A DNA stretch of 43,745 bases from positions 1-43,745 of the IMG/VR virus record IMGVR_UViG_3300042691_019090. One strand, 5' to 3'. Shown in pieces: positions 30,923 through 43,745 of this stretch; the stretch's first letter is position 1; each line of letters starts with the position of its first letter. The translations under genes and the position numbers were made by a program. Below the pieces are notes generated by a model. That model ran no database searches and was not told where the DNA came from. It saw only the letters and a program-made list of their open reading frames with translations. This DNA comes from a virus.

Positions 30923-31197
30923 CGAACCACCCCTTGCAGCCGGTCCGCCACGAGCTTGGCGTAACCGGCGATATCGACCCAGCTATCAGCGTAATCAGGG
31001 TCGCCGTTCACGATGCGCCCAATCTTGTGAAAGATCATGTCGAGCGCCTCCTGCTGGTCTGCTGCCAAAACCTTCTTGCGCTGTTCGAGGAAGCCCGAAG
31101 TCAAGACCTTGTACGCCTGCGTGACGTCCGCGTGCCCCATGAAAGAACCGTAACGGCCCCCACGCTCGTTCAAAACGGCATCGATAGCGTCGCTCAT
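30919..31197 (-). CDS. DUF6378-like protein
   Basis: 92 residues from ATG 31197; the frame is open upstream, but the start in an ATGA overlap with the HTH gene is natural. ERGGRYGSFMGHADVTQAYK, then DQQEALDMIFHKIGRIVNGD and DYADSWVDIAGYAKLVADRL. These conserved blocks match a phage family I recall as DUF6378, often beside nucleotide-metabolism genes. The function is unknown; the His/Asp-rich helices (GHAD, DMIFHKI) recall helical metal-dependent hydrolases. The family name is from memory. Confidence 0.8.
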   Translation of the reverse strand: MSDAIDAVLNERGGRYGSFMGHADVTQAYKVLTSGFLEQRKKVLAADQQEALDMIFHKIGRIVNGDPDYADSWVDIAGYAKLVADRLQGVVR

Positions 31198-31376
31198 TTC
31201 CACATCCCTTTCTTGTGGTTGTATATCTGCCTTTGAACGGAAGCCACCGAGCACTCGAAGTGCTCGGCGATGCTCCGGTAGGGTATACCATCTTCGTACA
31301 TTTGCCACAGGAGTGCACGGCGTTCCTGCGTCCACCAGCCCAAGGGCTTAGGTTCGTTCTTGATAACCCTAGGCAT
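31194..31376 (-). CDS. Small HTH protein (sigma-r4/GcrA-like)
   Basis: 60 residues: WWTQERRALLWQMYEDGIPY, then RSIAEHFECSVASVQRQIYN, a typical helix-turn-helix of GcrA or sigma region 4 type at about residues 28-52. A GTAAC palindrome lies three bases upstream of the ATG, with no Shine-Dalgarno visible between, unlike other site-headed genes. It may be a regulator of the distal early genes, or bind its own promoter-proximal palindrome. It begins the chain of overlapping genes down to the exonuclease. Confidence 0.75.
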   Translation of the reverse strand: MPRVIKNEPKPLGWWTQERRALLWQMYEDGIPYRSIAEHFECSVASVQRQIYNHKKGMWK

Positions 31377-31379
31377 AGC

Positions 31380-31391
31380 GTAACCAGTTAC
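31380..31391. promoter_or_regulatory. GTAAC-N2-GTTAC palindrome (CA spacer)
   Basis: Lies between the 165-residue gene and the small HTH gene. The stop codon TAA of the former (31388-31390) is inside the site, and the HTH start follows after three bases. Confidence 0.75.
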
Positions 31392-31885
31392 CGTGCTTTC
31401 CCGAGCAGCGTTGTCCAAATACTATCGCGGGGTTCAGGTGCGGTCTCGGTGGTATTTCCGAGCTCGAAATAACCGCCCGGTGGCACATTCATCGCCGTAT
31501 GGGCGTACCCCTGCGCCACCCCTTGCGATAGGCCCTGCAGATGCTGCTTGGCCATCGCCTGCTTCAGCCTCTCGTACTTCTCGCGTTCTTCGTCGCGGCG
31601 ACGCTGCTCGGCTGCGCGGCGCTCAGGGCCGTTCATCAGTTCGTCGAGCGCCCACTCGTGGGCTGCGTCCATACGGATACGCCCGATGGTCCGGTCGATG
31701 AGCCGTTGCTCTTCCTCCGTACCATTGTCCCGGATGACGTCGATCACCCGCTGCCAACGGTTATTACTATCCCATAACGGCAGTTGTGGGGTATCCTCTA
31801 TCCCCGTGTGGGGTAGAAACTCTTCCGGGTGGGTCTTTGCCCGCTCAACGAGCAGGGTCACGAGTGGGTGAATCTCATCCGCCAT
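31388..31885 (-). CDS. Helical protein, unknown
   Basis: 165 residues. N-terminal helical part (IHPLVTLLVERAKTHPEEFL, NRWQRVIDVIRDNGTEEEQR, LIDRTIGRIRMDAAHEWALD), then a very charged helix (RRAAEQRRRDEEREKYERLK) and a Gly/Pro-rich tail. It overlaps the DNA polymerase gene by 11 bases, so it is translated after it. The function is unknown. The charged helix could form a coiled coil. Confidence 0.65.
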   Translation of the reverse strand: MADEIHPLVTLLVERAKTHPEEFLPHTGIEDTPQLPLWDSNNRWQRVIDVIRDNGTEEEQRLIDRTIGRIRMDAAHEWALDELMNGPERRAAEQRRRDEEREKYERLKQAMAKQHLQGLSQGVAQGYAHTAMNVPPGGYFELGNTTETAPEPRDSIWTTLLGKAR

Positions 31886-33689
31886 AGCTTGCTCCTACTT
31901 TGCTCTCACAGTTCAACGGAAGTTTGACCGCCCACTTGGGGCGCGTCCTCATACAGGCTTCAACGAAGCTCCGGGCTTCGTCAACTTCGCTTTCCGGCAC
32001 CACAGGCACAACACTATCATGTACGGTCATTGCTACCTTATACCGGCGCGCGATCATCAGCATCTGGTTGGCGACAATGATGCGGGCGAGGGCTTGGCAC
32101 AGGTTTTCCACGGCCTTACCCCCATATATACGAGTCGGGATGGTGGCGCTACCTTTCTTTGTATCGTAGACCATCTCCTGCTTGCCCTTGTCGTTCAGGA
32201 CAAACCGCAGGTTTGGATAGCGGATACGGAAACCGTTCGGCAGCACAAGGCCCCCATCGACAACGATCTGGTTGTCCGCACCCACGGTGGTAGCGTAACC
32301 AGTTACGAGAGCTTCCAGAGCATCCCCCAACTGACGCCACAGGCGCGGGATATACGGATAGGTATCACGGTAGACCTCGATGATACGTTTACATTCCATC
32401 AGTGGCAGCTCGACGCCGAAGGTCTTGAGCTGGGCTTGGAACTTGGCCGCGCCCATACCGTAGCCGGCACCAAGGATGGTCGTCTTACCCACGAAGCGCT
32501 GTGCGTCGGTTACCTCCTCGACAGGGACTCCGTATATCGACGAAGCCATAATCTTGTAGACGTCTTCGCCTGCGTCGAACGCAGCGACCAAGTCCCACTG
32601 ACCGGCCAGCCACGCGAGGGTACGTGCCTCGATTTGAGAACTATCACAATCGATGACGACAAAGCCACGGGGGGCCTTGAGCGCCTTCTTCAGTTTGGAT
32701 TTGCGGGGGAGGTTCTGGAGGTTGACCTTATCATCTCCTCCGAAGCGGCCCGTGTGGGCGGCATAATAGCGCAATGGGACCGGCAGGGGTCCGCGCTGGG
32801 CGATACCGATGAACCGTTCGGTTCGCGACTCTTCCAATGTGGATTTCACGCCAAGACGCGCAGCCACGATGGCCTGCACGATGGTGTTCTCATGCTCCAA
32901 CAGCGCCTTGAACGCTTCGTCGTTCTTGGCGAAAGCATATGTCTCCTTACCCGTAGTCGGGCTGATTTTCATGGGGGGTTCGACACCCAAGTGGCGCAGC
33001 GTCTCCGCCAACCTCGGGTTGGACATGAGGTTGTCCTTGTCGATGAGCGCCTTACTCAACAGGTCGCGCTTCTGCTGCTGCACATCCGCGAGATGCGTAG
33101 TCAGTATTCCCGTATCCAGTTCCAGAACTGGCTCGCTGAACATGCGGATGGTCAAGTCGATGAGACTAAGCTCTTCCTTGGGGAAGCCGTCCAGCTGCCG
33201 CATCGCAAGCGCGTGGGTAAGGTCCACATCGTTGATGCAGTACCGCCCGTAGGCGTCCAGTTCGTGATTTGTGAAATCCAACCTGCGCTTACCCAGCGCG
33301 TTGACCACCTCGGTACCCTTCACACCCAGACCGTGACGAGCGGCCAGCTTGGCAAGACTGTTGCCTGCATCGGGGCCGTCGATAGCCCTTGCCATGGACA
33401 GTGTATCCACAATGCGTTTCGGACGGATACCAAAGTGCCAGTTCAGGATGGCCATATCGAACATGGCGTTATGGGCTATGGCTATGCTGCTATCCCACTG
33501 GAACCGCGCCAGCCACCGCTTCACCTGTGCTTTGGGTCCAGAGAACCACTCGGTCGGCCCATTATCGACCTTTACCGCTACACCGATAACCTCAAAGCGC
33601 GGGTCACGGACATACTCCTCCGTTGTCATCTTCGACAAGGAGTAGTCGCGGTCATAGAAGGTCTCGAAGTCGACAGTGAGGAGGGTCAC
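31875..33689 (-). CDS. Family A DNA polymerase with 3'-5' exonuclease
   Basis: 604 residues. DnaQ-like exonuclease: DFET (D7, E9), HNAMFD (H73, D78) and YCIND (Y150, D154). Polymerase: motif A IDCDSSQIEAR with D349 as catalytic Asp and Ser in place of the usual Tyr; O-helix RFVGKTTILGAGYG (R398, K402, Y410 with E. coli PolI spacing); motif C VHDSV (H557, D558, S559) where Glu is normally third. This is a compact phage replicative PolA. A GTAAC palindrome lies inside the gene at Val462-Tyr465. The gene follows a small DEL-box protein by an ATGA overlap. Confidence 0.92.
   Translation of the reverse strand: MTLLTVDFETFYDRDYSLSKMTTEEYVRDPRFEVIGVAVKVDNGPTEWFSGPKAQVKRWLARFQWDSSIAIAHNAMFDMAILNWHFGIRPKRIVDTLSMARAIDGPDAGNSLAKLAARHGLGVKGTEVVNALGKRRLDFTNHELDAYGRYCINDVDLTHALAMRQLDGFPKEELSLIDLTIRMFSEPVLELDTGILTTHLADVQQQKRDLLSKALIDKDNLMSNPRLAETLRHLGVEPPMKISPTTGKETYAFAKNDEAFKALLEHENTIVQAIVAARLGVKSTLEESRTERFIGIAQRGPLPVPLRYYAAHTGRFGGDDKVNLQNLPRKSKLKKALKAPRGFVVIDCDSSQIEARTLAWLAGQWDLVAAFDAGEDVYKIMASSIYGVPVEEVTDAQRFVGKTTILGAGYGMGAAKFQAQLKTFGVELPLMECKRIIEVYRDTYPYIPRLWRQLGDALEALVTGYATTVGADNQIVVDGGLVLPNGFRIRYPNLRFVLNDKGKQEMVYDTKKGSATIPTRIYGGKAVENLCQALARIIVANQMLMIARRYKVAMTVHDSVVPVVPESEVDEARSFVEACMRTRPKWAVKLPLNCESKVGASYGG
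32295..32306. repeat. GTAAC-N2-GTTAC palindrome inside polA-like gene
   Basis: CA spacer, with flanking C and G as in the intergenic copies. Read as Val-Thr-Gly-Tyr between polymerase motifs B and C. It does not head any gene. Confidence 0.65.
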
Positions 33690-33901
33690 TTGATTAGAAC
33701 CTTTCGGTGCGGTGCACCCGCACGACGGATGACGTCTTCATCAGCGTTAAGCACCATGCTGTAAGCACCCAACTCGTCCGGCGCTTGGACCACGACGATA
33801 CCCGCGTGGAACGCATCAGCCGCGTCATAGGGTAACACCTTGCGAATAACTAACTCGTCTCTGGCGGTGTCGCGCTCAAGGAAGACGCTAAACAGAAGCA
33901 T
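33686..33901 (-). CDS. Small DEL-box protein
   Basis: 71 residues. MLLFSVFLERDTARDELVIR, then FHAGIVVVQAPDELGAYSMV and a basic C-terminus. The VxAxDELGAY box near residues 40-47 is shared with four other small proteins of the right arm (35162, 38275, 38522 and 38773). The stop overlaps the polymerase start. The function is unknown. It may be a modular early protein; the shared box suggests a common fold of one strand hairpin plus a helix. Confidence 0.65.
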   Translation of the reverse strand: MLLFSVFLERDTARDELVIRKVLPYDAADAFHAGIVVVQAPDELGAYSMVLNADEDVIRRAGAPHRKVLIK

Positions 33902-34139
33902 TGAACCGTTCCGCTTCCCAGTCGCAGCCAGCGGTATCCCAACCGTTGCGGACCCGGTAACCGTTCGACAGCATCGTCTTGACTATGTCCACGGGGCAAA
34001 GGCACTCCCCTCGCCAGTCATCGGCAGGTTCCAGGCTATCAGGGTGTAGTGCGATACGGCCCTCACCCACGATGTCGGCAAGCTCACCCTGCGTCTCGAT
34101 GCGACGTCCTTCGTCTCTCATGTAGAGTACCACGCACAT
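33888..34139 (-). CDS. Small protein, unknown
   Basis: 83 residues from ATG 34139 with AAGGAG upstream; a longer start would pass into an unrelated frame. MCVVLYMRDEGRRIETQGEL, then PDSLEPADDWRGECLCPVDI and NGYRVRNGWDTAGCDWEAER. Two cysteines (CLC, and DTAGCDW) with no recognisable motif. It overlaps the next gene by 14 bases. Confidence 0.65.
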   Translation of the reverse strand: MCVVLYMRDEGRRIETQGELADIVGEGRIALHPDSLEPADDWRGECLCPVDIVKTMLSNGYRVRNGWDTAGCDWEAERFNASV

Positions 34140-34149
34140 AGACCGCTCC

Positions 34150-34467
34150 TTACCGCTCATCCCCGTTACCCCCGAGCACCCCGCGCTGCTTGCGGTCACC
34201 CAGCTTGTCGAGGTTGGCCTGCGCCACTTCTTCCAAGGTGTACCCCATATCCCGCGCGCACGCGGCCACATACCAGAGCACATCTCCGAGCTCTTTCATA
34301 GAGGTTTCACGGCTCCACACGTGGTCGCGCACCAGCTTCTTCACCTTGCCGGCGTATTCACCGGCTTCACTGGCCAGCCCCAGCGCTGAGTAAATCAGCC
34401 CCCACCTCTCATTACGCGGGTAGACAGCAGTCTCGGCGGCTTTGGTCTGATATTCATCGAGGGTCAT
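34150..34467 (-). CDS. MazG-like nucleotide pyrophosphohydrolase
   Basis: 105 residues. GLASEAGEYAGKVKKLVRD and ETSMKELGDVLWYVAACARD carry the ExxE and ExxD metal-binding pattern of MazG folds (EAGE, ELGD). The end KLGDRKQRGVLGGNGDER is typical of phage MazG-like proteins. It should hydrolyse (d)NTPs or alarmone-like nucleotides and adjust the pool during replication. It follows a zinc-finger protein through an ATGA overlap. Confidence 0.85.
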   Translation of the reverse strand: MTLDEYQTKAAETAVYPRNERWGLIYSALGLASEAGEYAGKVKKLVRDHVWSRETSMKELGDVLWYVAACARDMGYTLEEVAQANLDKLGDRKQRGVLGGNGDER

Positions 34468-34679
34468 TTGTCGGTTTTCCTCTTAAGCGGGATTGGGCAG
34501 TAGTGGCGGCTACCACCCTTGTCGTGAACAGCCCAGCGGTCCCCTGCGATTTTCCCCCAGCGAAGGTCCGCTGCGCCGCAGTTTCTACATGTCACGATGG
34601 TTGGCCCCCGGCGGTTTGGGGTCTGGGACATGGGACGCCGCGCCCACCAGCGCAAAGCGTCGTATGCGTAGCTACCCAT
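34464..34679 (-). CDS. Zinc-finger-like small protein
   Basis: 71 residues. TCRNCGAADLRWGKIAGDRW, then AVHDKGGSRHYCPIPLKRK. CxxC with a later H...H-x-C pattern suggests a zinc ribbon or knuckle that could bind nucleic acid. ATG 34679 is favoured by AAAAGGGG upstream; an internal ATG (34631) lacks a ribosome site. It overlaps the tiny membrane protein gene upstream (TAATG). Confidence 0.7.
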   Translation of the reverse strand: MGSYAYDALRWWARRPMSQTPNRRGPTIVTCRNCGAADLRWGKIAGDRWAVHDKGGSRHYCPIPLKRKTDK

Positions 34680-34798
34680 TAGTCACCACCCCTTTTCTCA
34701 TTTTCCATCCACGCAAGAACCCGCTCAGCCAGTGGATAGACGACGAAGACATAACCGAGCACCAGAAAAACAAGTGCCGCGATTTCAGCGGGGGTCAT
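34679..34798 (-). CDS. 39-residue membrane peptide
   Basis: MTPAEIAALVFLVLGYVFVV, then YPLAERVLAWMENEKRGGD. One clear transmembrane segment (residues 6-20) with a short charged tail. It is joined to both neighbours by overlapping start/stop codons, so translation is likely despite its size. Confidence 0.7.
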   Translation of the reverse strand: MTPAEIAALVFLVLGYVFVVYPLAERVLAWMENEKRGGD

Positions 34799-35028
34799 TT
34801 GTCGTCTCCTGCACGGATGGCGGCGGCAACCGCTTGCGCCTTTGCCTTGTCCGAACGCCCAGCGTTGCGAATGATGCGGAACAGGTCAATTTCGTCAGGC
34901 AGTTCTTGCCGTAGCGCCGTCGCCACCAGCGGGATGATGCGCTTGGCCACGCCTTCACAATAAGCAAAATCACCAACGCCCCATTCGTTCAGAAAATCCG
35001 CCACCCGTTCCACCAGATCGCCGCTCAT
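34795..35028 (-). CDS. Small helical protein, unknown
   Basis: 77 residues: MSGDLVERVADFLNEWGVGD, then AYCEGVAKRIIPLVATALRQ and DLFRIIRNAGRSDKAKAQAV. Amphipathic helices with a single Cys. It overlaps both neighbours (ATGA). No family was recognised. It is part of the chain headed by the palindrome at 35366. Confidence 0.7.
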   Translation of the reverse strand: MSGDLVERVADFLNEWGVGDFAYCEGVAKRIIPLVATALRQELPDEIDLFRIIRNAGRSDKAKAQAVAAAIRAGDDK

Positions 35029-35165
35029 TCCTCATCCCCTTCTCGGGCGCGCATGGCCGAAGCCTGTGCCAATGCACCCTTCTGTTTTGCGTTGATATAG
35101 ATACGCTCCATCCGCCCATCGGGAAATCGCTTCCAGAAGCGTCGGTTATGGATAACCACTTTCAC
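35025..35165 (-). CDS. 46-residue basic protein
   Basis: GTG 35165 overlaps the preceding stop (GTGA). VKVVIHNRRFWKRFPDGRME, then RIYINAKQKGALAQASAMRA. A short strand pair followed by a helix; basic. The overlap at each end is the main support. The function is unknown. Confidence 0.65.
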   Translation of the reverse strand: MKVVIHNRRFWKRFPDGRMERIYINAKQKGALAQASAMRAREGDEE

Positions 35166-35353
35166 AGAGGATGTTGCTCCGTCCATTTCACTGCCTCCAC
35201 AAATGCGTTGAGTTCGTCGTCGCCGCTCACGTACACGAAGCCGGGTGCGAATTGCTGCGGCAGTCGGTATCGCTGGTTTACCCTACCCGGCACGGTTGTG
35301 ACTACCTCGACCGGCATCCGGTCGGGACCTAGTCTGACCTTCCATCGTTTCAT
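35162..35353 (-). CDS. Small DEL-box protein
   Basis: 63 residues from ATG 35353, the start nearest the palindrome at 35366. KRWKVRLGPDRMPVEVVTTV, then YRLPQQFAPGFVYVSGDDEL and NAFVEAVKWTEQHPL. DDELNAFVEA is the family box. The N-terminal part is a predicted strand-rich region, the C-terminus one helix. It begins a run of five overlapping small genes down to 34464. Confidence 0.7.
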   Translation of the reverse strand: MKRWKVRLGPDRMPVEVVTTVPGRVNQRYRLPQQFAPGFVYVSGDDELNAFVEAVKWTEQHPL

Positions 35354-35365
35354 TGCTCTTACCCC

Positions 35366-35377
35366 GTAACTAGTTAC
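35366..35377. promoter_or_regulatory. GTAAC-N2-GTTAC palindrome (TA spacer, perfect palindrome)
   Basis: The TAG stop of the 40-residue membrane gene (35370-35372) is inside the site. The next gene (DEL-box, 35353) starts 12 bases on. With TA as spacer all 12 bases are self-complementary. Confidence 0.78.
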
Positions 35378-35492
35378 GCAAATGCGCCTGCTCCCTGCGG
35401 AGGAGCACTTCATGAGTGGCTGCGTTCACAAAGGCCATCCACCCAAGCACGACGATTACGGCACATACTACAACCCAAGCAGCGCTGCGCAT
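35370..35492 (-). CDS. 40-residue membrane peptide
   Basis: MRSAAWVVVCAVIVVLGWMA, then FVNAATHEVLLRREQAHLRN. One transmembrane segment (residues 4-21) and a charged C-terminal helix. The start overlaps the nuclease stop (TAATG). The stop codon lies in a GTAAC palindrome, which ties the two together. The function is unknown. Confidence 0.68.
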   Translation of the reverse strand: MRSAAWVVVCAVIVVLGWMAFVNAATHEVLLRREQAHLRN

Positions 35493-35800
35493 TAGGCACC
35501 AACTATCATTTTTTCGAGCAGCCACTGAAGCTGCCCGATGTTGCTTTCGTTCACAACGATGGCGCGGCCCCCCGCACGACGGATACTCTCAATCTCCAAC
35601 TCTTGCAGGCGCGTCGGCTTGTTGTCACCCGCCTTGCACTCGATGGCGAAGAAGAGCCCCGTGGGCGGGATGCAGCATACGATATCAGGTACGCCGCTAC
35701 GCCCAAACCCATGGGTAGCCGGGAAGAAGAAATAGACCCCGAGCGCCTTCAGCACTTTCACGACCTTGGCCTTGACGCGGCCCTCGGGGGTCATTGCCAT
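35492..35800 (-). CDS. VRR-NUC domain nuclease
   Basis: 102 residues from ATG 35800, with GGAG nine bases upstream; an ATG at 35815 is possible. TPEGRVKAKVVKVLKALGVY (E6), GRSGVPDIVCCI (P38, D39) and FAIECKAGDNKPTRLQELEI (E54, K56, Q66) form the PD-(D/E)XK core of VRR-NUC enzymes. Phage versions are stand-alone Holliday-junction or flap-type nucleases. It follows a DUF7448-like gene by two bases. Confidence 0.87.
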   Translation of the reverse strand: MAMTPEGRVKAKVVKVLKALGVYFFFPATHGFGRSGVPDIVCCIPPTGLFFAIECKAGDNKPTRLQELEIESIRRAGGRAIVVNESNIGQLQWLLEKMIVGA

Positions 35801-35802
35801 CC

Positions 35803-36234
35803 TCAGTCTCTCCATTCACTGTTGATTTCGAAGCCGCCGTAGTAGCCGTTGTGCTCGTTGTGGGTAGCGACCGTTACCGTGCCGGCGGTGGTGTTCACCC
35901 GAACGAACTGAGTTTCGTGGCAGCCGTCGTAGTTGTTGGCGATATTGGGGCCGTTCAGTACCTCGATATCCACAATCTTAGCCCCCGCAAATGAGCTTAG
36001 GTCATCATCCGTGGTCATATAGCGGTGCTCGCAGCAGCTCTGGCCACTGTCCCAGATAAGCAGATTACCTCCACCTTCGAACTCGATGTTCAGTCGGTCT
36101 TCGTTATCGACGCAGATGCTCACTATCGGGCGACCGAGTGAGGCCGCGTAAACCACTGGCAGATGCTCCGGCATGTCTCTCGCGTTTCCCACCAGAGACT
36201 GCACCGAGTACAGATACTCTTTATACCCTGACAT
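35803..36234 (-). CDS. DUF7448-like protein
   Basis: 143 residues. IWDSGQSCCEHRYMTTDDDL, then GAKIVDIEVLNGPNIANNYD and THNEHNGYYGGFEINSEWRD. The SCCEHRYM, TDDDLSSF and HNEHNGYYGGF blocks match a phage family I recall as DUF7448. Two adjacent Cys with several His might bind metal. The function is unknown. A GTAAC palindrome and AAGGAG lie directly upstream. Confidence 0.8.
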   Translation of the reverse strand: MSGYKEYLYSVQSLVGNARDMPEHLPVVYAASLGRPIVSICVDNEDRLNIEFEGGGNLLIWDSGQSCCEHRYMTTDDDLSSFAGAKIVDIEVLNGPNIANNYDGCHETQFVRVNTTAGTVTVATHNEHNGYYGGFEINSEWRD

Positions 36235-36251
36235 TCCCGCTGCTCCTTCCC

Positions 36252-36263
36252 GTAACCAGTTAC
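36252..36263. promoter_or_regulatory. GTAAC-N2-GTTAC palindrome (CA spacer)
   Basis: Directly 5' of GGGAAGGAG and the DUF7448-like start at 36234. A TTGACA hexamer lies just upstream on the minus strand (36280-36285), but the matching -10 is poor. Confidence 0.78.
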
Positions 36264-36281
36264 GCTACTGGCTTCACTGTG

Positions 36282-36512
36282 TCAACCATAAAAGCCGCCA
36301 CTGCCCCGACCTTTATCGCCGAAGCCGGAGCCATTTGCTATATTCATATATCCGTCGCCGTAACCGCCACCTTCGCCATCACCAAAGCAACCAAAATACC
36401 CATCTCCACGTGTAGATAGCGGAACTAGGGGGACGTTATTGACCCAGCCCTCAACACAAAAAAGGAGCTCGCCTTCGGGTAGAAGGCGAGCCCAGAGGAG
36501 CAACGGAGTCAT
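36282..36512 (-). CDS. Gly/Asp/Tyr-rich protein with embedded terminator
   Basis: 76 residues. MTPLLLWARLLPEGELLFCV, then EGWVNNVPLVPLSTRGDGYF and GCFGDGEGGGYGDGYMNIAN. The head LLWARLLPEGELLF resembles LWAKLVPDG of the two Gly-repeat genes at 42289 and 42970; the tail is a degenerate GD/GY repeat. The ATG overlaps the upstream stop (ATGA). An intrinsic terminator lies over codons 7-19, so full expression requires read-through. It may be an attenuated member of the repeat family or a decaying copy. Confidence 0.55.
   Translation of the reverse strand: MTPLLLWARLLPEGELLFCVEGWVNNVPLVPLSTRGDGYFGCFGDGEGGGYGDGYMNIANGSGFGDKGRGSGGFYG
36458..36491 (-). terminator. Intrinsic terminator within a coding region
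   Basis: On the minus strand a 10-bp stem (GCTCGCCTTC with GAAGGCGAGC, loop of five) is followed by TCC and six T. It lies 20-55 bases after the ATG of the Gly-rich gene at 36512 and right after the preceding gene ends. It should end most transcripts of the unit that starts with the 289-residue gene. Confidence 0.85.
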
Positions 36513-37378
36513 GATTGCACCACAAAGAACGTAGTGGCGGTCAGGCGCACGCCAGTGTCAGGGGCGTGAGTTCCGGGGTCAACCAGCTTCAGCAGGGCGA
36601 GCTTCTCCCGTATCTGTGTAGGCAGAGTGTCGTGTGTGTATGTGGCCCCCGCCGGCTGGAACGAGTCCGACGGCGTAAACGGCGCAACGATATACTCAGC
36701 ACCTCGCACCTCGACGACGTGCCCTTTGGGTAGCTGGCGAACCATCTCTTCGGCTTCGTCGAGGTTACGGCGCAGTTCGGTGAAGCTGATAGCCGCAACG
36801 GTCGGGTCAGCCACGTGCGCTTTGAGTGCGTCCCAGTGGGCGATGATATAGGGGACGAGCTCCTTCTGCGCCGAATACACGGAGTTGCGCCACTTTGCCG
36901 ACGCCTCTGTTTCCCGCCCCCGGACCTCGGACATCGCAGAAGCCCGCAGTCGGCCGGCGATTTCCTCAATGTCCAGTGGGTAGAACTCCTCCAGCACGCG
37001 CTTGAGCACCACCGACAACTTGGTCGTCTCCGAATGGCTCCCCCGATGTCGTTGCCTTTTCAACCTATGGTTGTCGTACACGTAACGCTTCGTGCCGCGC
37101 CAGTCGGTGTCGATAGCGACATACCCGAGATGCTCGTCGTCTTTGTAGAAATCGACACGAGTCACCTTAAAGTCGTCCGGGACACTCACCCTTTCGCTGC
37201 GGTATTTGAACACCCACGACGCACGCTTCGGGCGGATTTTGGCGAGGAGGTCCACCAGCATCTTATCCAGCACGGGCTCAAATGGACTCGGGGTGTATAG
37301 CGTCTTGTCGCGCTCAACCAAGACATAGGGCGCGTTCACGCAGGGGGTGTAGTTGAACTTGGTGAGGTCTTTGAACAT
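36509..37378 (-). CDS. Protein of unknown function (289 aa)
   Basis: MFKDLTKFNYTPCVNAPYVL, DKMLVDLLAKIRPKRASWVF and KYRSERVSVPDDFKVTRVDF in the first half (mixed strands), VLKRVLEEFYPLDIEEIAGR then helical repeats in the middle, and DSFQPAGATYTHDTLPTQIR near the end. No motif was recognised. A GTAAC palindrome and AAGGA precede the start. Its size and conserved-looking mixed fold suggest a real enzyme or structural early protein, but I cannot name it. Confidence 0.75.
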   Translation of the reverse strand: MFKDLTKFNYTPCVNAPYVLVERDKTLYTPSPFEPVLDKMLVDLLAKIRPKRASWVFKYRSERVSVPDDFKVTRVDFYKDDEHLGYVAIDTDWRGTKRYVYDNHRLKRQRHRGSHSETTKLSVVLKRVLEEFYPLDIEEIAGRLRASAMSEVRGRETEASAKWRNSVYSAQKELVPYIIAHWDALKAHVADPTVAAISFTELRRNLDEAEEMVRQLPKGHVVEVRGAEYIVAPFTPSDSFQPAGATYTHDTLPTQIREKLALLKLVDPGTHAPDTGVRLTATTFFVVQS

Positions 37379-37395
37379 CAGCGTTTGTCCTTCCC

Positions 37396-37407
37396 GTAAC
37401 CAGTTAC
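37396..37407. promoter_or_regulatory. GTAAC-N2-GTTAC palindrome (CA spacer)
   Basis: In the 33-base gap between the DUF3150-like gene and the 289-residue gene, just 5' of GGGAAGGA. Confidence 0.78.
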
Positions 37408-37411
37408 GCTG

Positions 37412-38269
37412 TTACCAGCTATAGCTCTTGAGGATAGCGTCGAGCTTGCTCTTGACCTCGATGCGAGTGGCAGCCTCCTCCTTGATATCGTCCATGTTGA
37501 CACCATAGATCGCCCGCTGGAGGTCGAGCCGTGCCTGCTCCAGCTCTGGGTCGTTGGTGACGTTGAGGTGGGTGAGCATCTGGCACAGGTCCTGCGCGTT
37601 GGTGAGGAACGTGTCGTGCCACCGCATCTTGGCGTCGTTGTCGGACAGGGACAGGTCGAGCTTGTCGGTCATCCGCTCCAGCATGTCCTTGAGGCGCTCC
37701 CACGGTTCGCGCATGGCGTCGGCCAGTCGGGCTTGAAACGCGGTGTCATACTGCGACCGCATCTCGACCATGTCCTGCGCCGGCAGGTCCAAACGGAAGT
37801 CGCCGCTCTCGGGCACGGGCGAGAACACCAGACGGAAGCCGAACTTGGCGCGCACGTCCTCGATATCGGGGTACTCGGCAGGGTTGTACAGGCCGCCAAG
37901 GCACTCCTTGGCACGCTCTTGGAGGGCGGGATAGTCGCGGCAGAACTGGTCCACCTTCTCCATGAAATAGGTCTGCCGGGCGTTGGCCTCTGCCTTGTAG
38001 TCAAAGAATAGCGACGTAGCCAGAAGACGGGAGCCACGGTCAGCCCACGGCAGCGTGTGCGTGTTGTGCCACAGCCGGCAGGCGGCAGCATAGTCGGCAA
38101 TCTCCTTGCGGAGGGTGGAGCCAGCCATGAGGTTCTTTCGGAACAAACCGGCGTCAGCAGTGGCGTTGCTATCCGCAGCCACCTTCCGGGTGGCATCGCG
38201 GTCCACTTTGTTGGCGGTCCAGACGCTGATGTTCAGGTCGACCAGCATGGCGGCGGATGAGATTGGCAT
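37412..38269 (-). CDS. Helical protein, DUF3150-like
   Basis: 285 residues. AMLVDLNISVWTANKVDRDA, a FRKNLMAGSTLRKEIADYAA segment, WHNTHTLPWADRGSRLLATS, LYNPAEYPDIEDVRAKFGFR, then all-helical DMVEMRSQYDTAFQARLADA and following. This pattern recurs in phages beside a MoxR/CobS-like ATPase and a VWA protein, as here, and I associate it with DUF3150; the name is tentative. It is probably a partner of the AAA+ and VWA proteins. Confidence 0.68.
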   Translation of the reverse strand: MPISSAAMLVDLNISVWTANKVDRDATRKVAADSNATADAGLFRKNLMAGSTLRKEIADYAAACRLWHNTHTLPWADRGSRLLATSLFFDYKAEANARQTYFMEKVDQFCRDYPALQERAKECLGGLYNPAEYPDIEDVRAKFGFRLVFSPVPESGDFRLDLPAQDMVEMRSQYDTAFQARLADAMREPWERLKDMLERMTDKLDLSLSDNDAKMRWHDTFLTNAQDLCQMLTHLNVTNDPELEQARLDLQRAIYGVNMDDIKEEAATRIEVKSKLDAILKSYSW

Positions 38270-38274
38270 TGGTG

Positions 38275-38532
38275 TTATTCCTTCTCTGTTTTCTGTAACC
38301 GGTTACGCCGGCTGCGTTCGTAGTCTGCTTTGGCTCTGAGGTGCTGCATGAGCTTGATACCTTCCGCGAAGGCACTGAGTTCGTCCGAGGCGAAAACGTA
38401 GTTATACGCTGCTCGGCTGTATCCCCGGTAATAGACTATCCAGCTGCTGTCCCAGTTTCGCACCATATGCAGCACCTCGTATGGCGGTGTGGACTTGTTG
38501 CGCCATTCGAGCTCCCAATCCTCACCAGTCAT
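38275..38532 (-). CDS. Small DEL-box protein
   Basis: 85 residues from ATG 38532. EDWELEWRNKSTPPYEVLHM, then WIVYYRGYSRAAYNYVFASD and ELSAFAEGIKLMQHLRAKAD. FASDELSAFAEG is the family box; the strand-rich part before it has Tyr/Trp residues (WIVYYRGYS) like the neighbour at 38522 (FDYVWRGHN). It overlaps that neighbour by 11 bases. The palindrome at 38295 is inside its 3' end. Confidence 0.7.
   Translation of the reverse strand: MTGEDWELEWRNKSTPPYEVLHMVRNWDSSWIVYYRGYSRAAYNYVFASDELSAFAEGIKLMQHLRAKADYERSRRNRLQKTEKE
38295..38306. promoter_or_regulatory. GTAAC-N2-GTTAC palindrome (CG spacer, perfect palindrome)
   Basis: Lies in the last codons of the DEL-box gene 38275-38532, 26 bases upstream of the DUF3150-like start, with AGAAGGAA between. 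Confidence 0.75.
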
Positions 38533-38776
38533 CGACGGTCGTCTCCTGCATGTGTTTCCAGCGGCGACCGAGTTGCTCCTTACGCAGGGCGTCGAGTATA
38601 GCCTGCACTTCGATGTAGGCACCTAGCTCGTCGACGGCCTCGATGGTGGATGCCGTGAGCCCGTTGTGCCCGCGCCACACGTAGTCGAACCGGCCGGGTC
38701 GATATTTGTTCGGGACCACAAGTAGCACCTTGAACAGCGGGGTGTCAGGGCGGAAAAACTCAGGGGGTATGTTCAT
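38522..38776 (-). CDS. Small DEL-box protein
   Basis: 84 residues. TPLFKVLLVVPNKYRPGRFD, then YVWRGHNGLTASTIEAVDEL and GAYIEVQAILDALRKEQLGR. EAVDELGAYIE is the family box, preceded by a strand pair KVLLVV / RFDYVWRGH. It overlaps the next gene by 11 bases and the previous gene by ATGA. The function is unknown. Confidence 0.7.
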   Translation of the reverse strand: MNIPPEFFRPDTPLFKVLLVVPNKYRPGRFDYVWRGHNGLTASTIEAVDELGAYIEVQAILDALRKEQLGRRWKHMQETTVDDW

Positions 38777-39009
38777 TTCGCTCTCCTGCTGCGCGCCATC
38801 TGGGTGAATTGTGCAAAACGCTGGAGTCGTTTGTTTGCTTTGGCGAAAGCTTCAAGCTCGTCTTTCGCCGGCACTGTGCTCTCCTTAAGCTTACCTCGGC
38901 TGTCGTAGTAGGAGTATTTCCAATAAACCCCCCGGTATTTGGCCGCTCCGTATTCCAAACGATAATAGAAGCACACCGACAGCACGGTGAAAGGTTCTTT
39001 GTCGTCCAT
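38773..39009 (-). CDS. Small DEL-box protein
   Basis: 78 residues. FTVLSVCFYYRLEYGAAKYR, GVYWKYSYYDSRGKLKESTV, then PAKDELEAFAKANKRLQRFA. PAKDELEAFAKA is the family box; Tyr-rich strands precede it. It heads a group of three consecutive DEL-box genes. A 9-bp hairpin and a GTAAC palindrome lie upstream. Confidence 0.7.
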   Translation of the reverse strand: MDDKEPFTVLSVCFYYRLEYGAAKYRGVYWKYSYYDSRGKLKESTVPAKDELEAFAKANKRLQRFAQFTQMARSRRAK

Positions 39010-39023
39010 GGCTCACCCCAGTG

Positions 39024-39045
39024 GGTGGGGGCCGAAGCCCCCACC
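39024..39045 (-). promoter_or_regulatory. UUCG-capped hairpin beside a palindrome
   Basis: On the minus strand GGTGGGGGC pairs with GCCCCCACC around a TTCG loop, the very stable C(UUCG)G type. It lies between the AAA+ gene's stop with its palindrome and the first DEL-box gene. No U tract follows, so termination is unclear; mRNA processing or stabilisation is also possible. Confidence 0.7.
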
Positions 39046-39057
39046 GTAACCAGTTAC
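39046..39057. promoter_or_regulatory. GTAAC-N2-GTTAC palindrome (CA spacer)
   Basis: The AAA+ gene's TAA (39054-39056) is inside the site, as at 31380 and 35366. The UUCG hairpin abuts it, and the first DEL-box gene starts 37 bases on. Confidence 0.78.
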
Positions 39058-40130
39058 AGAATGTCGCTGTTGTCAGCGGCCCACTTCGTGAAATCCTTGG
39101 ACCGGAAAGCGATACGCTGCTTGGTCTTGGACCGGGCCAGCATGGTGCAGAACACCGCCTGATGCTCGGTCTCCATCCGGCAGACATAGGTCATGATTTT
39201 CTCGATGTTCTGCTCGTCGACCACGCGTTCGAGGTTGAACAGCAGGGTGATGATGACGGCCACCGACTCCGGGATGCGGGTGGTGGTCGGGGAGGCGATA
39301 ATGTCCTCCCGCTTGGGCAGCTCATCTTGGAACTGGAGGTAGGACTGGAGGTCGCGCGCCCCGGCGTCACCGACCGTGCCAATGAGCGCCGCCGTCAGAG
39401 CATTGGCCGACAGGCGCTCGCGCTTCCACATGATGTTGCTGGCCAGCTGGAGCGAGCGAGGCGTGATGAACTTCCCCTGCACGCGCTTCGGGTTATAGAC
39501 GTAGGCGTTGTCCTTGTCGAAGTCGTCGTCGCGGAAGCTCGCCAACACCTGCGGGGTCTGGTCAACCCAAGCCAGCAGTGCCGGATGAATGTCGTTCTCC
39601 ACCCCCCATTCCAGCCACTCGCGTGGCGTGGGCTTGCGGACTTCGACACGGGTGATGCGGTCCAGCGTGTGGTCCAGCAACACGTCGCCAATGCCTTCTT
39701 CCGCGAGGTTGGTGGTCAGGAACACGATGCTGCCTTCCGGGAGCAACGTATCACCAAGGCGCGGCTTGTTCACTTCCAGCAGCGGGTGCAGCATGTTCTG
39801 CACCGGGCGTGGTGCCTTGCCGAACTCGTCGAGCATGATGACGACCGGCTTGCCGGTGTTGAGCTTGAAGGCCGCCGACGGGAAGAAGTCGGTCTCCTTG
39901 GTCTCGCGGTTGGGGAACGGGATGGCGACGTCACCCAGCTCCTTGTTGCCGCAGTCGATATAGGCATATTCGTAATCGCCGTGCAGGTAGTTGGGCAGCA
40001 TCTTCATGATGCTGGACTTGCCGATGCCCTTCTCACCCTGAAGCATCACGCGATTGGTAGCGCCGATGGCGGCGATGAGCTCCGCAGCTTCCTTGAGGGA
40101 CACGCGCGAACCGAAGTTGATGGTGGTCAT
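39054..40130 (-). CDS. AAA+ ATPase, MoxR/CobS-like
   Basis: 358 residues from ATG 40130 (AGGAGC upstream). Walker A GEKGIGKS (32-39), Walker B VVIMLDE (96-102), sensor-1 FLTTNLAEE (137-145) and a probable arginine finger in LLDHTLDRIT (R158) define a MoxR/CobS-type AAA+ module. A helical lid follows (RSLQLASNIMWKRERL). In many bacteria and phages such ATPases act with VWA proteins to remodel targets; a HExxH-VWA protein lies two genes upstream and a DUF3150-like gene downstream. It has its own promoter and palindrome. Confidence 0.87.
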   Translation of the reverse strand: MTTINFGSRVSLKEAAELIAAIGATNRVMLQGEKGIGKSSIMKMLPNYLHGDYEYAYIDCGNKELGDVAIPFPNRETKETDFFPSAAFKLNTGKPVVIMLDEFGKAPRPVQNMLHPLLEVNKPRLGDTLLPEGSIVFLTTNLAEEGIGDVLLDHTLDRITRVEVRKPTPREWLEWGVENDIHPALLAWVDQTPQVLASFRDDDFDKDNAYVYNPKRVQGKFITPRSLQLASNIMWKRERLSANALTAALIGTVGDAGARDLQSYLQFQDELPKREDIIASPTTTRIPESVAVIITLLFNLERVVDEQNIEKIMTYVCRMETEHQAVFCTMLARSKTKQRIAFRSKDFTKWAADNSDIL

Positions 40131-40148
40131 GATGTTGCTTGCTCCTGT

Positions 40149-40160
40149 GTAACCAGTTAC
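40149..40160. promoter_or_regulatory. GTAAC-N2-GTTAC palindrome (CA spacer)
   Basis: In the leader of the AAA+ gene, about 50 bases after promoter 40209 and directly 5' of AGGAGC. Confidence 0.78.
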
Positions 40161-40208
40161 GCCACTGGTCTGTTGATGAGGCGGTATAACCCCCCGCCTC
40201 ATGGGTAT

Positions 40209-40237
40209 CTTGTACTACAGCTACTTGCCTATGTCAA
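40209..40237 (-). promoter_or_regulatory. Sigma70-like early promoter 2
   Basis: TTGACA (40232-40237), 17-base spacer and TACAAG (40209-40214) on the minus strand. The -35 overlaps the stop of the small membrane gene. Over 31 bases it matches the promoter at 42925 with four differences. It should drive the AAA+ gene and those after it. Confidence 0.8.
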
Positions 40238-40398
40238 GTGCGGTAGATGAGGCAGGGGCTGTCTCCGGTGTAGATGTGCCAGCTCTGCGTGGCTTCCAGC
40301 ACCAAAAGCGCGGCGAGGGCGCACAGGACGACGGTTAACGCCGCCGCGCCTGCGGTGAGCACAAGGCCGCCCGCGATGGTGCAAATCTTCTCAACCAT
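40234..40398 (-). CDS. 54-residue membrane protein
   Basis: MVEKICTIAGGLVLTAGAAA, then LTVVLCALAALLVLEATQSW and HIYTGDSPCLIYRT. One long hydrophobic region (residues 5-34) that could be one or two helices. AAGGAG lies before the ATG, which overlaps the end of the Nmad5-like gene. Its stop lies within the -35 of promoter 2. The function is unknown; position in the AAA+/VWA block is the only clue. Confidence 0.7.
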   Translation of the reverse strand: MVEKICTIAGGLVLTAGAAALTVVLCALAALLVLEATQSWHIYTGDSPCLIYRT

Positions 40399-40996
40399 TG
40401 TCTTGCTCCTTCGTCTCCGGCGGCAGGCCAAACTTGGCGTTGATATCCGCGACCTGCACGGTCGGCAGGGTCCGGTCGCTCTCGGGGATGAGGTCACCGA
40501 TGACAGGCATTGCCTCGGGCCATGCCGCCGCCAGCTTCTTGCCGGTCGACACGGTGTTCAGCACCGCCATGACTTCCCGGTACGCAGCTTCACAGGAGTC
40601 GTCGAACTGCTTGTAGCGCGTGACGAAGTTCTTGATTTCCTCGGACAGCTCGACGTTGGCGATGGTGTGGTAGGCGTAGTCGCGGGTCACTTTGTAACCA
40701 TCGTGTTTGGCCTGTTCGAGCTGCACCCAGTGACTGCGCATCTGCCCCCCGACGCGGACCCGGTAACCCTCCGCGCTGACGCAAAGCCCGGACCACCCGG
40801 TGTTTTCGAACGTCTTCGGGTGGTGCTTCTCCACCACAGCCATCGCGTCCTGCACCTCCTTGGGGTAGAGGTGGGCATAAGCCCGGTCGGCCAGTTGGCG
40901 GTTGAGCTGCACCAGCTCCTTGGCTTCGCTGGTGTACCGGTAGGCCACCAGCTTGCGGGCCATTTCTTCACGGATGTTGTTGGTCAGTCGGCTCAT
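40391..40996 (-). CDS. Nmad5-like protein
   Basis: 201 residues. RLTNNIREEMARKLVAYRYT, then ADRAYAHLYPKEVQDAMAVV and MAVLNTVSTGKKLAAAWPEA, with TVQVADINAKFGLPPETK at the end. This pattern fits the phage domain known as Nmad5 (nucleotide-modification-associated domain 5), whose biochemistry is unknown. No DNA-modifying enzyme was seen elsewhere in the window, so a link to modified bases cannot be made. A GTAAC palindrome and AAGGAG head it. Confidence 0.65.
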   Translation of the reverse strand: MSRLTNNIREEMARKLVAYRYTSEAKELVQLNRQLADRAYAHLYPKEVQDAMAVVEKHHPKTFENTGWSGLCVSAEGYRVRVGGQMRSHWVQLEQAKHDGYKVTRDYAYHTIANVELSEEIKNFVTRYKQFDDSCEAAYREVMAVLNTVSTGKKLAAAWPEAMPVIGDLIPESDRTLPTVQVADINAKFGLPPETKEQDNG

Positions 40997-41016
40997 CGGT
41001 CTTACTCCTTCGTTGT

Positions 41017-41028
41017 GTAACTGGTTAC
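41017..41028. promoter_or_regulatory. GTAAC-N2-GTTAC palindrome (TG spacer)
   Basis: In the 36-base gap between the VWA gene and the Nmad5-like gene, just 5' of GAAGGAG. Confidence 0.78.
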
Positions 41029-41032
41029 GGGG

Positions 41033-42277
41033 TTATTCCTTGACGTGGATGGTCTTACCGATAGGTGCGTCGGTGTTGGGGTTATCGACGACCACCCAGA
41101 GCACAGGGCACGGGTAGTTGGTTCCCCAGTTGCCGATGTATCCATCGGTAATCATAACCACGCAGTCGGGTTTGAGCTTGTGCTCCTTCATATACTTGGG
41201 CACACAGGCCGCGTCGGTGCCACCACCACCCTTGGGCTTCGCCCGCTGGAGCAGGCTGTCATATTCACCCTGCTTGAAGGTGTCATGCCCGGCGACTTCG
41301 GTGTCCCAGTAGAGTACATCCATGCGCTCGGGGCTGGTCGTGTTGGCAATCTCCACAATCTCGGTGAAGATGCGGTTGATGGGTGGAGGGTTGCCGCCCC
41401 ACATGGAGCCCGACAGGTCCGCACCGACGACGATATGCCCAAGGCTCTCGCCATAAAGCGAGGGCAGTGACAGGTCGAGCGCATGGACACGCCGGTTGAG
41501 TCGCCGCCATGTGGACTGGTCCTTGTTGGCGCAGTAAGCGGTGATGAACTCCCGCAGCGCGGTGCGCCAGTCAACGCCGGGGCGCAGCAACTCCCCAATC
41601 TCGGCGGGCATGTCGCCCTTACCAGCACCCATCTGCTTGGCTTCGGCTTCGCCACGGCGCAGCGCGTAATCCACGTCGCGCTCCAGCTTCTCCATCTCCT
41701 CCTTGGGGATGGCGTTGGCCTCCTCCCACTCGTGCTCGTCAAAGCCATCGGGTAACTGGTTACCCTGACCGCCCTGACCGCCGCTACCCTTGCCGCCCAT
41801 ACTGTTCTGCCGCTGCTCCTGCCGCAGGATATCGAAAATCTGCTTGGCGGACAGGCCGTTGAAGCGACCCGTTTCGTCATAGACACCGAGCCGGTTGCCG
41901 TCCGGGGTGCGCGGGAACTGCACCACGGTGCCATTGGGGTCGGCCTGCGTAATCATACGGTTGACGACGTAATCGCAAGCGATGTTGGCGAGCTGGTGAT
42001 CGATTTCGTGGAGCTTCTTCCACGTGGTCAGGTGGCGTAGGCCCTTGTGCATGGCCTCGTGCAGGGCAACGAAGGCCAGCTGGGGCACAGGCAGCATCTC
42101 AATGAACGCCCTGCCGTAGACTTCGTCGCGTCCGTTGGTGGCGGCCGTCGGCACGCGGCCGGTGTCGTCGATGGTGGTCTTGCCGATGGTCATGAGCCCC
42201 GCCCACAGCCGCAGGCTGGGCAGCTGAGACCGCATCACATCAATCTTCGCCTTCTTGAGCTTTCGTTCAGGTGTCAT
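41033..42277 (-). CDS. HExxH metallopeptidase-like VWA protein (DUF2201-like)
   Basis: 414 residues. N-terminal putative metallopeptidase with ALHEAMHKGLRHL (H73, E74, H77) and the following IACDYVVNRM helix; a Gly/Gln-rich linker (about 157-178, GGKGSGGQGGQGNQ); acidic helices; then a von Willebrand A domain with the MIDAS DLSGS (287-291) in VVGADLSGSMW and KGGGGTDAACVPKYM further on. This matches DUF2201-type proteins. With the AAA+ ATPase it resembles MoxR-VWA or CobS-CobT pairs. The substrate is unknown. A palindrome copy lies in the linker. Confidence 0.85.
   Translation of the reverse strand: MTPERKLKKAKIDVMRSQLPSLRLWAGLMTIGKTTIDDTGRVPTAATNGRDEVYGRAFIEMLPVPQLAFVALHEAMHKGLRHLTTWKKLHEIDHQLANIACDYVVNRMITQADPNGTVVQFPRTPDGNRLGVYDETGRFNGLSAKQIFDILRQEQRQNSMGGKGSGGQGGQGNQLPDGFDEHEWEEANAIPKEEMEKLERDVDYALRRGEAEAKQMGAGKGDMPAEIGELLRPGVDWRTALREFITAYCANKDQSTWRRLNRRVHALDLSLPSLYGESLGHIVVGADLSGSMWGGNPPPINRIFTEIVEIANTTSPERMDVLYWDTEVAGHDTFKQGEYDSLLQRAKPKGGGGTDAACVPKYMKEHKLKPDCVVMITDGYIGNWGTNYPCPVLWVVVDNPNTDAPIGKTIHVKE
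41752..41763. repeat. GTAAC-N2-GTTAC palindrome inside the VWA gene
   Basis: TG spacer on the plus strand. Read in a different frame from the other coding copies (Gly-Asn-Gln-Leu-Pro), at the end of the Gly/Gln linker. It heads no gene. Confidence 0.6.
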
Positions 42278-42288
42278 TTCTCTCTCCT

Positions 42289-42609
42289 CTATTCGTTGCC
42301 GCTGCCGCTGCCGTCGCCGTAGCCGTAGCCGTTCCCGTCGCCGTCGCCGTAGCCGTAGCCGTTCCCGTCGCCGTAGCCGTTCCCGTCGCCGTTCCCGTCG
42401 CCGTAGCCGTAGCCACCGCCTCTACCGTCACCAACAGACCCATCACCCCAACCGTCGCCGTTAACGAAGCCGCCATCGCCACAGCTATAGCTATTGCCGT
42501 CAAAACGCATGGTTTGCGGGTAACCAGTTACAGTAACGCCGTCCGGCACGAGCTTGGCCCATAGATGGGAGGGGCAAAGCCCCTCACCACGCAGGCCAGC
42601 GGTCGTCAT
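42289..42609 (-). CDS. Gly-Tyr/Gly-Asp repeat protein with LWAKLVPDG head
   Basis: 106 residues. From ATG 42609, inside the end of the 89-residue gene, comes SHLWAKLVPDGVTVTGY, then a tail of alternating Gly with Asp, Asn, Tyr or Ser. Over the 17 codons of the head aligned with the gene at 42970 (His-Leu-Trp onward), six of seven base differences are synonymous, which argues that this stretch is translated in both. A shorter start at 42510 would drop the head. No Shine-Dalgarno sits before 42609, so translation may be coupled. The function is unknown. Confidence 0.65.
   Translation of the reverse strand: MTTAGLRGEGLCPSHLWAKLVPDGVTVTGYPQTMRFDGNSYSCGDGGFVNGDGWGDGSVGDGRGGGYGYGDGNGDGNGYGDGNGYGYGDGDGNGYGYGDGSGSGNE
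42297..42420. repeat. Hexanucleotide-type repeat (GGC-TAC / GGC-GAC)
   Basis: Plus-strand gccgta, gccgtc and gccgtt units in irregular order. On the minus strand these are Gly-Tyr, Gly-Asp and Gly-Asn codon pairs. Such arrays are prone to slippage in steps that keep the frame. Confidence 0.9.
42520..42531. repeat. GTAAC-N2-GTTAC palindrome inside a repeat-protein gene
   Basis: CA spacer. Codes for Val-Thr-Gly-Tyr at the junction of head and tail of the Gly-repeat protein. It is homologous to a one-base-different site at 43138 in the paralogue. Confidence 0.65.
42569..42585 (-). promoter_or_regulatory. GC hairpin at end of the 89-residue gene
   Basis: GAGGGGC pairs with GCCCCTC over a 3-base loop at the stop codon of the 89-residue gene. 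No U tract follows. It could modulate ribosome or RNA-polymerase passage into the Gly-repeat gene. Confidence 0.4.
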
Positions 42610-42853
42610 TGCACGGGATGAGGGCGATCATCGCAGGCGGCACGATGGTGACGAGCGGCGCGGGGTCATCCAGCTCCGTGTCTTTGGTGGGGCCGTTGAC
42701 GAGCTGGTTGAGGCCACGCTGGGTGCCCCAGCGGCGCACGATGCGTGCGTTGTGCAGATGGTAGAAGTCGCCGTCGAAGGTAATGCTCTTGGCCACCCAG
42801 ACGTGGCCGGCGGTGGCCACCACCAGTGTGGTGGTCCATTGGTTGATGCTCAT
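42584..42853 (-). CDS. Small beta-rich protein, unknown
   Basis: 89 residues. TTTLVVATAGHVWVAKSITF, then DGDFYHLHNARIVRRWGTQR and VTIVPPAMIALIPCNDDRWP. Alternating strands and a short helix. The FDGDFYHLHNA segment and a C-terminal CxxxxW recall small phage proteins of the DUF6948 kind, but this is not a firm match. A palindrome then AAGGAG lie upstream, and promoter 1 precedes them. Confidence 0.68.
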   Translation of the reverse strand: MSINQWTTTLVVATAGHVWVAKSITFDGDFYHLHNARIVRRWGTQRGLNQLVNGPTKDTELDDPAPLVTIVPPAMIALIPCNDDRWPAW

Positions 42854-42871
42854 GTCATGCTCCTTGGTTGT

Positions 42872-42883
42872 GTAACTGGTTAC
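42872..42883. promoter_or_regulatory. GTAAC-N2-GTTAC palindrome (TG spacer)
   Basis: In the leader after promoter 1, about 40 bases from its -10 and directly 5' of CCAAGGAG of the 89-residue gene. Confidence 0.8.
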
Positions 42884-42924: not shown

Positions 42925-42953
42925 CTTATACTACACATACTTTCCTATGTCAA
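42925..42953 (-). promoter_or_regulatory. Sigma70-like early promoter 1
   Basis: TTGACA (42948-42953), a 17-base spacer and TATAAG (42925-42930) on the minus strand, in the 116-base gap between the second Gly-repeat gene and the 89-residue gene. It is a near-consensus promoter for the housekeeping sigma factor, and its surroundings repeat promoter 2. Confidence 0.85.
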
Positions 42954-42969: not shown

Positions 42970-43194
<225 letters not shown>

Positions 43195-43364
43195 CCATCT
43201 TCTCCAAGGCGGCGAGGCGTTGGCGCAGGTGCGACGGGGCGAAACCCCAGACACCGAGAACATTGCGACCATAGTCGCTGCACTCGCGGTTGAGCTGCTG
43301 CTCCGTGGCGAGGAGCTCCGCTTTCAAGGCGTCGTAGCGCCGAAGAAGCTGGATTGCGGGGTGT

Positions 43365-43643: not shown

Positions 43644-43645
43644 TA

Positions 43646-43745
43646 TCAGTCTCCTCCGTCGCCGCCGTCGCCGTCGCCGTCGCCGTAGCCGTAGCCGTCG
43701 CCGTCGCCGTAGCTGTAGCCGTAGCCGTAGCCGTCGCCGTAGCCG
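43646..43745 (-). CDS. Gly-Tyr/Gly-Asp repeat protein, 5' truncated
   Basis: The minus-strand frame is open from the window's end to TGA at 43646-43648 and encodes only alternating Gly with Tyr, Asp or Ser, ending GDGGDGGD. The head lies outside the window, so membership of the LWAKLVPDG family is presumed. It ends three bases before the membrane-anchored gene. Confidence 0.65.
   Translation of the reverse strand, partial: GYGDGYGYGYSYGDGDGYGYGDGDGDGGDGGD

Follow-up and report, generated by a model that had tools for sequence, protein, structure and literature searches.

Lineage-specific palindromes at the early operon heads of a phage family: probable operators of a phage-encoded regulator

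A short palindrome, GTAACNNGTTAC, recurs along the early genes of the IMG/VR virus record IMGVR_UViG_3300042691_019090, and the question raised by this locus is what reads it, and for what end. The record, taken at its full length of 43,745 bases and here called the window, is linear, with structural genes running rightward (~144-23,004) and replication and early genes running leftward (from 23,283 to the right end); it is probably incomplete, because the longest relatives reach 59-63 kb. An earlier note on this DNA had counted 13 exact copies, 12 of them in the distal right arm, and a degenerate one at 43138. All 13 coordinates are exact matches with no further copies in the window, 12 fall at 31380-42883 in the early arm, and the copy at 43138 is present with one mismatch. 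In 100 dinucleotide-preserving shuffles 0.03 copies were expected (maximum 1), and the pattern read backwards has 0 occurrences in the window. No other short inverted repeat of the window comes near GTAACNNGTTAC in over-representation (log10 p -31; the best repeats from four shuffles gave -3.6 to -4.3).

The palindromes are probably, with a probability of about 0.6, dispersed operators of a phage-encoded, sequence-specific and probably dimeric regulator that binds double-stranded DNA and limits early transcription. This reading draws on sequence comparison with relatives, which were found by the VWA/DUF2201 protein and by the protein of the first early gene, considered below as candidate reader, longer stretches being then fetched. 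No DNA-level match to the window was present in the phage collection, and the patterns used found no relatives in bacterial genomes. As a repeated motif, GTAACNNGTTAC was found in no relative examined. Where enough of the early arm is available, nearly all relatives show an over-represented palindrome of their own at the equivalent operon heads, amounting to ~13 private sequences, and a cross-count over the records gave an almost diagonal matrix, in which the palindrome of one record hardly occurs in the rest.

Among the relatives, labelled G or L, CTTACYYRRGTAAG is the palindrome of G003, G005-G007, G011, L107-L113 and others, and CGTACACGTGTACG that of G002, G009, G010 and G013. CTGACANNTGTCAG is common to G018, G020 and G027. 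The remaining palindromes include CTTACACGTGTAAG (G008), GTTTGCCGTAGYRCTACGGCAAAC (G012), GTTATCCRAACYRGTTYGGATAAC (G001, imperfect), CTTAATYRATTAAG (G004), CATACYYRRGTATG (G016), TTCCCTACYYRRGTAGGGAA (G024), ATAACANTGTTAT (G019), TTTTAANNTTAAAA (G021), ATCTAANNTTAGAT (G022) and GCGGACN5GTCCGC (G023), with GCCGTAGYRCTACGGC as another example. Those of G017 (TTACYYRRGTAA, ~three copies) and G001 were weak in the automatic scan and were recognised by position. L018/L019 (G014/G015), with GTAACYRGTTACACA, were set aside, having only two copies each and being otherwise an unrelated phage as far as examined, and no dispersed palindrome of this kind occurs in Pseudomonas phage Rollin. A few searches of the open-access literature found no published account of these palindromes.

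Position is kept where sequence is not. Across relatives the palindrome stands at the ATPase or VWA operon head, immediately 5' of the Shine-Dalgarno sequence (SD), despite its differing letters, and when gene order changes it goes with whichever gene heads the operon. The earlier note had proposed looking for the motif at the same junctions of related genomes and regarded its lack there as a refutation. The letters are indeed missing at these junctions and the position is conserved, but that refutation would misfire, because the relatives have a different palindrome in the same place.

The replacement is clearest between near-identical phages. The replication proteins of G010 and G012 are 96-99% identical (primase 99%, polymerase 97%, a small helix-turn-helix (HTH) protein 100%), and their palindromes are unrelated. 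Three junctions aligned among G009, G010 and G012 have near-identical flanks with the palindrome swapped in place. G010 also carries, beside its own code, two CTTAC-type sites at early junctions (1224 and 56432), the one at 56432 adjoining a CGTACAC site, and with CTTAC-type and CGTACAC-type codes together it is an apparent intermediate. On the operator reading, each phage lineage has its own operator sequence, and all copies within a genome change together.

The isolated Rhizobium phage RHph_TM27A (MN988461.1) is like the window in having syntenic replication genes and a dispersed palindrome, GTTACCTN4AGGTAAC. Unlike that of the window, its palindrome has a 4-6 bp spacer, lies in both arms and often contains the SD. 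There are 41 near-copies (<=2 mismatches) over both arms, several of which enclose the SD, and 21 of the 41 are not wholly intragenic, though the genome is 91% coding. In the same genome, the 'putative integrase' at 42248-45331 is related to the DUF927 primase/helicase-like protein of the window, and this annotation is thus probably wrong.

Within the window the features are as follows, palindromes being given without strand.

20074-20085: exact copy within the gene of the 2032-aa late virion protein
31380-31391: copy ending 3 nt before the ATG at 31376 (minus strand) of a small HTH gene
32295-32306: copy within the gene of DNA polymerase A
35366-35377: copy 13 nt before the ATG at 35353 (minus strand)
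36252-36263: copy immediately 5' of the SD and ATG at 36234 (minus strand)
37396-37407: copy immediately 5' of the SD and ATG at 37378 (minus strand)
38295-38306: copy 5' of the SD and ATG at 38269 (minus strand)
39046-39057: copy overlapping the ATPase gene stop codon, 5' of the next gene (39009)
40149-40160: copy immediately 5' of the SD and ATG at 40130, MoxR-like ATPase gene
41017-41028: copy immediately 5' of the SD and ATG at 40996, Nmad5-domain gene
41752-41763: copy inside the VWA/DUF2201 gene
42520-42531: copy inside a glycine-rich open reading frame (ORF), codons V-T-G-Y
42872-42883: copy immediately 5' of the SD and ATG at 42853
43138-43149: degenerate copy with one mismatch, within a second, related glycine-rich ORF; possibly just coding sequence that matches by coincidence
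40209-40237, minus strand: sigma70-like promoter TTGACA-17-TACAAG, its predicted leader including the 40149 palindrome; same arrangement in relatives
42925-42953, minus strand: sigma70-like promoter TTGACA-17-TATAAG, its predicted leader including the 42872 palindrome
39054-40130, minus strand: MoxR-like AAA ATPase gene, a palindrome standing at this operon head in most relatives
41033-42277, minus strand: VWA/metallopeptidase-like gene (DUF2201), the query for finding relatives
31197-31376, minus strand: small HTH protein, formerly a candidate reader; not the specificity determinant
26139-26366, minus strand: small HTH_3 protein, formerly a candidate reader; not the specificity determinant

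For eight of the 12 copies in the early arm a start codon follows within 30 nt, a zone that makes up 5.6% of the arm (binomial p ~4e-8); the list of starts behind this figure was partly hand-picked and two of its entries are not start codons, which hardly alters the fraction. The seven copies that the earlier note had placed 5' of a ribosome-site region (35366, 36252, 37396, 38295, 40149, 41017 and 42872) all stand there, and 31380 is the eighth. Copies at 20074, 32295 and 41752 are within coding sequence, which corrects the earlier description. Those at 42520 and 43138 cover identical codons in a pair of related glycine-rich ORFs and do not count as independent. From 35366 to 42872 the spacing is near-even (mean 834 bp, coefficient of variation 0.26), and only 0.00015 of random placements are equally even. 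The copies at 20074, 31380 and 32295 have a common 3' flank, GTTACGCTA, which differs from that of the remaining copies.

Whether the target is DNA or RNA was approached through the substitutions. The arms are nearly invariant within each genome. The centre of every GTAACNNGTTAC copy is a pyrimidine-purine step (TG, CA, TA, CG), in mixed orientation among the window copies (coding strand: 7 TG, 4 CA), and the same step is found in 89/89 sites of the closest clade. Single-side transitions comprise 16 G.U-compatible and 29 pair-breaking changes (two-sided p 0.07), and since substitutions do not favour G.U pairs, double-stranded DNA is the likelier target than an RNA hairpin. A DNA-binding dimer, already suggested by the earlier note, is still the simplest reader in view of these near-invariant arms, the symmetric centre, the mixed orientation and the lack of G.U preference. 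The argument then given, that two centre nucleotides are too few for a loop, has little force, as the inner pair can open to leave a 4-nt loop.

A transcribed hairpin beside the SD, to which a phage protein binds or which affects translation or antitermination in the manner of boxB, would fit sites that lie immediately 5' of the SD within leaders, and the longer palindromes of G012 and G024 could fold into stable stems. The asymmetric centre of the CTTAC group, found mostly in one orientation, also favours such an element; shared descent may lie behind this bias. Against it, the centre is self-complementary in 89/89 sites and mixed in strand orientation in the window, copies occur inside coding genes and upstream of the first promoter, and within a genome the arm sequence itself is fixed, not merely its pairing. 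The RNA hairpin was rejected on the substitution pattern, and an RNA-level element is considered unlikely.

The placement of sites relative to promoters suggests how DNA operators might act. In the window, two copies follow clear TTGACA-17-TANNNN promoters and fall within the expected leader. A TTGACA-17-TAnnnn promoter stands 69-112 bp upstream of 13/83 G-series sites and just downstream of 3/83. Operon heads hold the sites immediately 5' of the SD, and these often fall within a leader that follows a sigma70-like promoter, or else shortly before the promoter of the first early gene. A dimer made by the phage would bind the palindromes in leaders and between or inside the genes of operons, where the bound protein would block or slow transcription as a stoperator-like roadblock. 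The same regulator would act at the first early promoter, so that early genes would be turned down or timed. Integrase and resolvase (PF00589, PF00239) and ParB_N, the only lysogeny markers searched, had no match in 14 records, many of them fragmentary, and a role in lysogeny is thus unproven; a role in early-gene shut-off during lytic growth is at least as likely.

Alternatively, the palindromes might themselves be promoters or activator boxes for a phage or modified host RNA polymerase, giving mRNAs with short leaders. Sites just 5' of the SD would suit this, and part of the G009 virion protein distantly resembles the N-terminal part of the N4 virion RNA polymerase (phrog_2206 positions 182-491). 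However, this match lacks the polymerase catalytic region, the gap between site and SD is too short for a -10 element if the site is an activator box, and several sites are preceded by sigma70-like promoters. An N4-type virion polymerase was rejected as a candidate, the catalytic part not being found, the phrog_2206 match in G009 being confined to the N-terminal part, and the window protein having none. A search for a T7-type RNA polymerase (PF00940) gave no match, and its controls were likewise silent, so that it is uninformative. A promoter function is accordingly rated as improbable.

Dispersed phage sites of comparable kinds are known. The conserved inverted repeats of phiC31, a temperate phage with a known repressor, are palindromic, repressor-bound and dispersed over the phage early region. 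The window family is like phiC31 in having dispersed palindromes in the early region, and we know of no lineage-by-lineage code in the phiC31 repeats. Cluster A mycobacteriophages have many short repressor sites, the stoperators read by L5 Rep, in short intergenic spaces over one genome, with a motif that varies among related phages and correlates with the repressor; a stoperator is 13 bp long and asymmetric, and the monomer that reads it acts in one orientation only (PMC9283540, PMC6550527). The window family likewise has many sites dispersed in short intergenic spaces and a motif differing between relatives. Unlike stoperators, its sites are palindromic and of mixed orientation in the window, and because they lack this asymmetry the system is not classed as stoperators. 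In the L5 type the reader is the immunity repressor of a temperate phage, with an N-terminal HTH, and stops elongation when bound; no repressor or lysogeny gene was found here, no repressor profile being part of the search, and the HTH candidates do not co-vary with the palindromes. Start-associated sequences (SAS) and their extended form (ESAS, which includes inverted repeats) lie within a few nt of the starts of non-structural genes in cluster K, the SAS being a 13-bp non-palindromic GGGATAGGAGCCC common to the whole cluster (PMC3203893). The likeness to them drawn by the earlier note extends to the repeats near start codons. The sequence is different, being palindromic and private to each lineage here, and the SD normally lies outside the site.

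As readers, the earlier note had put forward the HTH proteins at 26139 and 31194. Their copies in G010 and G012 are 100% and ~97% identical despite unrelated palindromes; they therefore do not set specificity, and both were ruled out as determinants. All 309 ORFs of G009 were screened for conservation in G010 together with divergence in G012 and G001. The first gene of the early operon (G009 24565-25380) is the only real early gene that passes; late lysis and structural genes beyond the coverage of G012 also pass and were judged unlikely readers. The product has 255-276 aa in relatives, its gene falls past the right end of the window, and its promoter region in G009 itself has a palindrome site. 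There are two types of this gene: 18 records carry type I, and type II is seen in G012 and in G001 and L104, the last two having the same upstream sequence. Half-site positions -5 to -3 read TAC in 18/18 type I records, and not in type II. In the backbone tree G009 and G010 group with G001 and G012, whereas the first-gene tree disagrees with it and matches the motif class, so that the motif follows the first gene and not the backbone. Given the operator model, the product of this gene is the likeliest reader, at somewhat short of even odds.

Several observations weigh against the operator model or this choice of reader. No recognisable promoter is near 67/83 G-series sites. In the first-gene protein neither a DNA-binding domain nor a Pfam or PHROG family could be recognised, and its AlphaFold model (10 sequences, mean predicted local distance difference test score 77.7) had no PDB or BFVD match at E<=0.001. 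No homologue is detectable in RHph_TM27A or more distant relatives, and the first gene of RHph_TM27A, considered as one, shows no homology. Type II comprises two distinct phages only. G012 covers the late arm in part, so that the reader could be some other gene. By their large late virion protein the records divide as they do by motif class (G007/G009/G010/G017/G024 versus G000/G001/G012). This split favours an ejected virion protein as reader, a gene outside contig G012 being the other candidate of this kind, and the virion protein of the window has an FtsK-gamma DNA-binding domain. On the other hand, the FtsK-gamma target site is non-palindromic, G009 has an ATPase domain in place of FtsK-gamma, and a virion protein would be unusual as the regulator of 5-40 sites. 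A reader of either kind has a low probability.

Centromere-, partition- or packaging-like sites of the ParB/KorB type would account for the even spacing in the window and the genome-wide copies of RHph_TM27A, but the sites are strongly biased to gene starts and few lie in late genes of the window clade. ParB_N was found in 0/14 records (fragments may hide one), against matches in 11/14 control genomes, a ParB or integrase context was not found in them, and a role in genome organisation is distinctly improbable. Reading by a host protein that differs among the possible hosts of these metagenomic phages is barely credible: G010 and G012 have unrelated palindromes despite replication proteins so alike that their hosts are probably similar.

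If the operator model holds, this phage family offers a natural series of ~13 operator codes. Near-identical pairs such as G010/G012, with the apparent two-code intermediate, would make a joint change of regulator and operator specificity directly testable, and RHph_TM27A, as an isolated relative, is open to immediate study. The family may then also yield a DNA-binding protein of a new class, and sets of matched operators of use in synthetic regulation. The fuller picture, of an apparently virulent family with a dispersed operator network whose palindromic code is private to each lineage, has been rewritten in place at every junction and is read by a new-fold protein from the first early gene, is rather doubtful as a whole.

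Some further observations concern neighbouring genes. The 2032-aa virion protein of the window (16906-23004) has its FtsK-gamma domain at ~residues 446-502, and the equivalent protein of G009 has an HATPase domain and that of RHph_TM27A an inorganic pyrophosphatase domain, so that enzyme or DNA-binding domains are exchanged in a variable N-terminal part. The gene at 40391-40996, with a palindrome at its head, encodes an Nmad5 (nucleotide modification associated) domain protein (E 3e-19). Related early ORFs with long glycine/aspartate/tyrosine repeats (GYGDGDG...) at 36282-36512, 42289-42609, 42970-43272 and 43600-43745 form an apparent multi-copy gene family. G009 has a LAGLIDADG homing endonuclease amid its structural genes (10325-10816), which is also in G010 and was not found in G001. 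Between the first and second early genes of G009, an AT-rich stretch (25500-26050; L013 ~6025-6575) whose two strands carry numerous TGTAAGAAA-like repeats is a possible replication origin.

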